From contig CAINQO010000082.1 of the NCBI GenBank assembly GCA_903852325.1, positions 1 through 33,305 on the forward strand: 33,305 nt of DNA, given 5' to 3'. Below, one piece after another: positions 14,877 through 15,579 of this stretch. The position numbers were made by a program, and so were the translations under genes. Origin of the DNA: Candidatus Omnitrophota bacterium. GTDB lineage: Bacteria > Omnitrophota > Gorgyraeia > Gygaellales > Profunditerraquicolaceae. The notes under the pieces were generated by a model. It had not been told where the DNA came from and made no database searches. It worked only from the letters and a program-made list of their open reading frames with translations. Each line of letters starts with the position of its first letter. Position 1 is the first letter of the stretch.

Positions 14877-15167
14877 ATGTTTATCCACGTAGTTTTATTC
14901 GTCGTCAAGCCGGGTGAATTGGCAAAATACCGGAAAGATAGTTTGATGTGGGCCCGCCACGCCAGGAAAACTTGCGGGTTGCTCAGCTACAGGACAATGC
15001 GGCGCCTCGGATACAAGGACCAGTACGCTTCCGTCTACCAGTGGGCCAGGAAATCCGACCACGATCGTTTTATGCGTAAATACCATGATTGGCTGGTGGA
15101 CAAGTCTAAGGCTAAGGTCAAGGTTGTCGAATACTATAATCTTAAGCGAATCGACAAATTTAAATAG
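14877..15167 (+). CDS. Small protein resembling ABM (antibiotic-biosynthesis-monooxygenase)/dimeric alpha-beta barrel fold
   Basis: FIHVVLFVVKPGELAKYRKDSL...GLLSYRTMRR...YASVYQWARKSDHDRFM; RBS GGGGGAGGG. Confidence 0.5.
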   Translation: MFIHVVLFVVKPGELAKYRKDSLMWARHARKTCGLLSYRTMRRLGYKDQYASVYQWARKSDHDRFMRKYHDWLVDKSKAKVKVVEYYNLKRIDKFK

Positions 15168-15222: not shown

Positions 15223-15250
15223 TTGACAATCATCCGGATTATTATATAAT
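15223..15250 (+). promoter_or_regulatory. Strong consensus promoter of csp gene 1
   Basis: TTGACA (15223-15228), 16 nt, TATAAT (15245-15250). Confidence 0.8.
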
Positions 15251-15257
15251 TTTCAAA

Positions 15258-15349
15258 GTAGCGAACAAGGGAGTAGAAGTCTTCAACCGTAAGGAGAAAA
15301 GAATAAAACGCCTTACGGTTTTTTTTATTTTGCTCCCGTTTGAGGCTAC
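15258..15349 (+). promoter_or_regulatory. Structured csp leader with embedded terminator-like hairpin
   Basis: GTAGC 15258-15262/GCTAC 15345-15349; GGGAG 15269-15273/CTCCC 15333-15337; AACCGTAAGG 15285-15294/CCTTACGGTT 15311-15320, T8 run ending 15326. Confidence 0.7.
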
Positions 15350-15378
15350 AATTTCATGGAAAGGAGGAAATAGAACAA

Positions 15379-15579
15379 ATGGCAAAAGGCAAAGTAAAGT
15401 GGTTTTCCAATCAAAAGGGTTATGGTTTTATTACGCCTGAGAACGGGGCTGATGTGTTCGTGCATCACACCGCTATCCAGGGTGAAGGCTATAAGACTTT
15501 AGAGGAGGGCCAGGAAGTAGAGTTCGAGATCGAAAAAGGTCCTAAGGGTGAACAAGCTACTAAAGTAGTGAAGTTATAA
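15379..15579 (+). CDS. Cold-shock domain protein
   Basis: [33 protein letters not shown] (RNP motifs); RBS AAAGGAGG. Confidence 0.96.

Follow-up and report, generated by a model that had tools for sequence, protein, structure and literature searches.

A conserved leader RNA ahead of cold-shock genes in the Omnitrophota and its possible role as a two-level switch for RNA-chaperone genes

Comparative sequence analysis indicates that the leader of a cold-shock gene (csp) in the 1.63 Mb assembly of a Candidatus Omnitrophota bacterium is a conserved RNA element, one that is found across the Omnitrophota before cold-shock genes and, in the genus of this organism, before an RNA helicase. We read this element as a two-level, autogenous cis-regulatory RNA of RNA-chaperone genes, and place the probability of this reading at about 0.55 at most; the leader probably sets the level of the RNA-unfolding machinery in the cell. 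The control of csp genes is little known outside a few model bacteria, and the in vivo weight of Csp antitermination is disputed, another group having pointed to northern patterns of the nusA-infB operon (PMC6511841). A leader that packs a terminator, a rival strand and a start codon into ~120 nt, and that csp and helicase genes have in common, would make a compact test system, would be portable to E. coli reporters, and would provide an initial regulatory mechanism for this large, uncultivated phylum.

The window analyzed is a stretch of 33,305 nucleotides, and this leader lies on its forward (+) strand. A σ70-type promoter, TTGACA-16-TATAAT (15223-15250), matches the consensus at 12 of 12 positions, in line with the consensus promoter named by the sequence-only reading, and is followed, in the order which that reading gave, by a hairpin with a T-run, a Shine-Dalgarno sequence (AGGAGG, 15362-15367) and the ATG of csp, which encodes a CspA-family cold-shock protein of 66 aa (15379-15579; PF00313 CSD, E 2e-29). 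The transcript is predicted to start at ~15258 with a segment termed A1 (GTAGCGAACAA, 15258-15268, including GTAGC at 15258-15262); since A1 begins 6-7 nt past the -10 element in 57 of the 74 leaders compared, it is taken as the predicted RNA 5' end. It is succeeded by seg1 (AAGGGAGTAG, 15267-15276), which spans a GGGAG motif (15269-15273), and by a U-rich linker (AAGTCTTC, 15277-15284) that is kept across csp leaders and is a possible site of Csp contact. The terminator stem has its 5' arm (AACCGTAAGG) at 15285-15294, a 16-nt loop at 15295-15310 and its 3' arm (CCTTACGGTT), also the putative target of seg1, at 15311-15320. Beyond the T-run (15319-15326) lie CTCCC (15333-15337) and a C strand (CCGTTTGAGGCTAC, 15336-15349), which is a potential partner either of A1, through its GCTAC (15345-15349) and the GTAGC of A1, or of the start-codon region A2 (CAAATGG, 15376-15382), through CCGUUUG:CAAAUGG. 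The 3' end of the C strand resembles TATAAT, and an internal promoter at this place was rejected by eye for want of a -35 partner at the usual spacing. Folding of the leader transcript (15253-15378) gave a predicted -36.4 kcal/mol with a z of -4.3, and 0 of 200 shuffles were equally stable.

The evidence for conservation begins with the promoter and the hairpin. In an alignment of 75 csp leaders taken phylum-wide (A3), which is the basis of all helix counts given here, the promoter is present in 74 leaders (at least 10 of 12 consensus matches in 64), the terminator stem is paired in 96.5% of cells with both-side changes at 5 of 8 pairs, and at least 6 U within the 8 nt after the stem occur in all 75. 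The tail described earlier as U8 is indeed a run of eight T, of which the first two pair with AA, leaving a free tract of U6. With the promoter standing between the hairpin and the end of the upstream gene at 15167, this is not a terminator of that gene. A simple terminator scan made no call at this leader because it allows loops of 3-8 nt and the loop here has 16. The proposal of attenuation with readthrough is well supported by this conserved succession of promoter, hairpin with U-run and gene, the arrangement of a transcription attenuator, and by its recurrence at csp and helicase genes; on this comparative evidence the element probably attenuates transcription. The conservation across genomes also means that the hairpin is not a chance feature, and the leader element itself is, in our judgement, almost certainly real. 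In two species (L016, L020) the C strand is naturally deleted and the terminator is retained immediately 5' of the Shine-Dalgarno sequence; we count these in favor of the two-level attenuator.

A covariance model of the leader (R1) found a match in 107 of the order's 129 genomes and in 201 of 392 genomes sampled across the Omnitrophota; these are assemblies from uncultivated organisms, and E-values given for such models are rough, resting on a short calibration. The leaders of the genus's 27 genomes align, and at most of the 46 csp loci read in the rest of the family the leader is of the first type, that of the window copy at 15379. A relative's leader pattern, searched for exactly in named genomes, returned 16 records, of which 15 belong to Candidatus Omnitrophota. 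Among the 13 that were read (the Omnitrophota records L128, L137 and L142 being outside this set), the hairpin was present in 12 of 12 Omnitrophota; the match in a Woesearchaeota record (L136) is inside a coding region, lacks the hairpin and was dismissed as chance.

Within its own genome the leader recurs. The three csp genes, at 15379 in the window, on contig C100 and at 32898 in the window, each have a promoter, a hairpin and a U-run 5' of the Shine-Dalgarno sequence, and the three leader types align in the genus over 24, 25 and 26 sequences. A model of the leader core (R3) has three strong sites in this genome, comprising two csp leaders and a site on contig C40 that lies before the genes for a small CxxC protein and a DEAD-box helicase; csp copy 2 on C100 and the helicase operon score E 3e-10 and 1e-9, and their layout is that of the window copy. 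A weak R3 match (C60:3518) falls within an S18-like coding region and was discarded. Directly downstream of csp copy 2 lies a gene for a divergent second cold-shock-domain protein (MNTGKIKK.., G000:C100:548-733). Of 20 further R3 sites that were fetched, 14 precede the helicase operon in members of the genus (L304-L309, L311-L315, L317-L319), and the remainder precede NMO-like genes, an EF-G-like gene, further csp genes and a CxxC protein. The core leader stands before an EF-G-like gene in L303/L322 and before nitronate-monooxygenase-like genes in L182, L310 and L316. The small CxxC ORF, for which no Pfam family match was obtained, has an ATC or ATT start in 15 of 15 readable genomes (L194:1616-1758; L304-L319), resembling infC, which starts with AUU.

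The candidate for a fold that competes with the terminator is seg1, just 3' of A1, which complements the loop end and the 3' arm of the hairpin (together seg3), as in AGGCGAGU:ACUCGCCU of L200 or AAGG.UUAG:CUAACCUU of many leaders. Over the 75 leaders, the pairing of each seg1 with its own seg3 averaged -6.81 kcal/mol versus -5.55 for swapped partners, a difference reached in 0 of 10000 permutations, and in an overlapping set of leaders the swap test gave 0 of 5000 while a seg1:seg2 control was flat. Reversed seg3 gave -5.45, so the bulk of the energy comes from composition, and what counts as signal is the partner-specific remainder. Counts in fixed columns were weak (59 of 500 shuffles reached the covariation score) because two registers exist, and they were replaced by the swap tests, which, like the shuffle tests, keep the relatedness among leaders. 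In the window copy seg1:seg3 is weak (-5.2 kcal/mol, z -0.66), as it is throughout the genus, from which no signal of its own was obtained. The terminator is far more stable than seg1:seg3 (means of -14.6 and -6.8 kcal/mol), so a helper or kinetics would be needed for seg1 to prevail. Seg1 is a candidate strand, either antiterminator or the partner of the hairpin loop in a pseudoknot.

This weakness in the window copy is what would be expected if the leader held a plain intrinsic terminator that has no competing fold and is melted by Csp or a helicase, with seg1 serving as a protein site or joining the loop in an H-type pseudoknot. Antitermination at intrinsic terminators has been described for CspA, CspC and CspE of E. 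coli (Bae 2000, as cited in a passage of PMC11648934), an activity which the suggestion that Csp melts its own leader hairpin would fit by analogy, and CspD relieves a terminator (PMC9765468). A plain terminator leaves unexplained, however, why seg1:seg3 complementarity is partner-specific and falls in several registers across families, and why the helicase leaders keep CTAACCTTT in the hairpin even though its CTAA falls outside the main stem; we hold this account to be unlikely. In the helicase leaders of 14 genomes of the genus seg1 (mostly AAAGATTAG) begins 5-6 nt past the -10 element.

The nested helices around the hairpin do not oppose the terminator, a point that the sequence-only reading missed, as it also missed the candidate rival strand immediately 5' of the hairpin, the start codon as a pairing partner, and the spread of the element over several genes and the whole phylum. 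The two outer helices that it had proposed fared differently. GTAGC:GCTAC is kept across the phylum with compensatory changes: the A1:C helix is paired in 91.3% of cells, has both-side changes at 8 of 10 pairs in the 75 leaders, and was matched by 0 of 500 shuffles on any measure; a swap test of A1:C was not significant in a narrow window and was significant in a wider one. GGGAG:CTCCC is restricted to the species of the window and was ruled out as a conserved helix. The placement of A1 at the predicted 5' end, and the fact that no outer helix has better support than A1:C, would fit a leader that protected the mRNA by pairing its 5' end near the Shine-Dalgarno sequence, hidden from 5'-end-dependent decay, with the hairpin a partial terminator that trims output. 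Such protection accounts neither for the complementarity of C to the start codon nor for the helicase leaders, which are without A1:C, and we think it quite improbable.

The second pairing of the C strand, with A2, involves 86% of cells over the 75 leaders; both-side changed cells number 23 versus 8.3 in shuffles (0 of 500), and the number of pairs changed on both sides was matched by 24 of 500 shuffles; compensatory support is less strong here than for the terminator and A1:C. In the pairing leaders the position facing the U of the start codon holds A 32 times and G 32 times, as fits a partner that is always U. Removal of the first 13 nt from the window leader lowered the start-codon exposure predicted by a folding model from 0.65 to 0.22, and such 5'-end deletions shifted predicted exposure clearly in just 15-19 of the 75 leaders. 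In some leaders (L232, L234-L237, L240, L184-L186, L050, L107, L108) a conserved insert, CCGTTAG..GGTAAAGGTGAT..CTAACGG, interrupts or doubles the C strand. It looks like the start-codon region, for which it is possibly a decoy. Mobile elements as the source of these palindromic inserts were dropped from consideration, the inner segment being conserved.

Pairing that sequesters the Shine-Dalgarno sequence or start codon, a feature of RNA thermometers, is present here as the C:start helix of the 75 leaders. The genes are of the cold-shock type, and the cspA mRNA of E. coli changes its fold on cold shock (PMC7858274), all of which could suggest that temperature alone is read by an RNA thermoswitch whose hairpin and start-codon helix refold in the cold with no protein sensor. 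Predicted start-codon exposure hardly changes between 10 and 37 C (0.22 to 0.25 in the folding model), however, and an Rfam search found no family for the leader alone; the E. coli cspA thermosensor family (RF01766) scored 50.8 bits against a cut-off of 78 on the window leader with coding sequence, a score lost on the leader alone, and one relative reached 79.1 bits, coding sequence included. A response to temperature by itself is unlikely in our estimation, about as doubtful as the plain terminator. Like the E. coli cspA 5' UTR, the present leader belongs to a CspA-family gene, is structured and would limit access to the translation start; it differs in having, in addition, a terminator and a partner strand for the RNA 5' end.

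The two-level reading would bring these pairings together as follows. At the level of transcription, RNA from ~15258 would end at the hairpin and U-run as a ~69-nt RNA, and readthrough would occur when seg1 captures the 3' half of the hairpin or the hairpin is blocked. At the level of translation, the C strand of the readthrough RNA would pair with its own 5' end, freeing the start codon and covering the 5' end, or would alternatively pair with the start codon, turning translation off. What is sensed, and which way expression then moves, are matters that we infer: the likely input would be RNA-chaperone activity (Csp, DEAD-box helicase), which would make the circuit autogenous.

Parts of this scheme have precedents in other bacteria. 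CspA-family proteins act at intrinsic terminators in E. coli metY-rpsO and, for CspD, on SgrS; in the Omnitrophota the terminator is within the leaders of the csp genes themselves, and action by the protein is putative. Bacillus subtilis rplJL, which is controlled autogenously by L10(L12)4 (PMC4538822), and the rimP-leader (PMC2965389, whose text mentions neither cold nor csp) share the order of promoter, leader, terminator and gene, whereas the genes, sequence and structure are different and the Omnitrophota leader adds start-codon sequestration. A Csp that controls its own expression is known from Staphylococcus aureus cspA (Caballero 2018, as cited in a passage of PMC11648934). Within the open-licence literature, a search found no csp attenuator of the present kind. 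To our knowledge, no terminator switch is involved in the S. aureus auto-regulation.

Leader peptides separate the window copy from the third csp gene of this genome. An SD-like AAGGGAG does lie 5' of the hairpin in the first leader type (type I), with a TTG at suitable spacing in some relatives, as if a translated leader peptide governed the window copy. No conserved set of Shine-Dalgarno sequence, start and stop was found among type I leaders, though, and the window reads TTC where the start would be, which makes such a peptide extremely improbable there. The third csp gene (32698-32898 on the - strand) has a different leader, type II, with a promoter (TTGACA-16-TATATT, 33092-33119), a hairpin (ACCGCAAAGCA..TGCTTTGCGGT) with a T-run (32987-33033), and a short ORF with a TTG start (MSSNMYKPQSSNRK) at 33009-33053, preceded by a Shine-Dalgarno sequence at 33065-33069 and ending with its stop in the hairpin loop, all on the same strand. 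In the order, 55 of 129 genomes have a match to a model of this leader (R2). Among 20 other genomes of the family, 18 combine a Shine-Dalgarno sequence and a start with a stop placed in the arm or loop, versus 4.9 in shuffles (0 of 1000). The overlap of a short ORF with a hairpin is shared with trp-type leader-peptide attenuators; type II differs from these in having no run of regulatory codons and in its starts, which across genomes are TTG, GTG, ATT (AUU in the RNA) or, rarely, ATG (L209-L228), and type I differs in having no conserved ORF. Type II is thus, on the strength of these sequence features, a probable translated uORF attenuator, unlike type I. A broader proposal, which we offer tentatively and consider rather less likely than the two-level reading, is of a phylum-wide Omnitrophota switch that senses free RNA-chaperone capacity and sets csp and DEAD-box helicase through termination and start-codon exposure, with one strand shared by the 5' end and the start codon, while parallel csp leaders would sense translation initiation through weak-start uORFs. 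In two genomes with tandem csp copies (L066/L067, L072/L073) the type II hairpin has given way, in the same place, to another hairpin that brings its own T-run, a replacement that we count in favor of the two-level attenuator.
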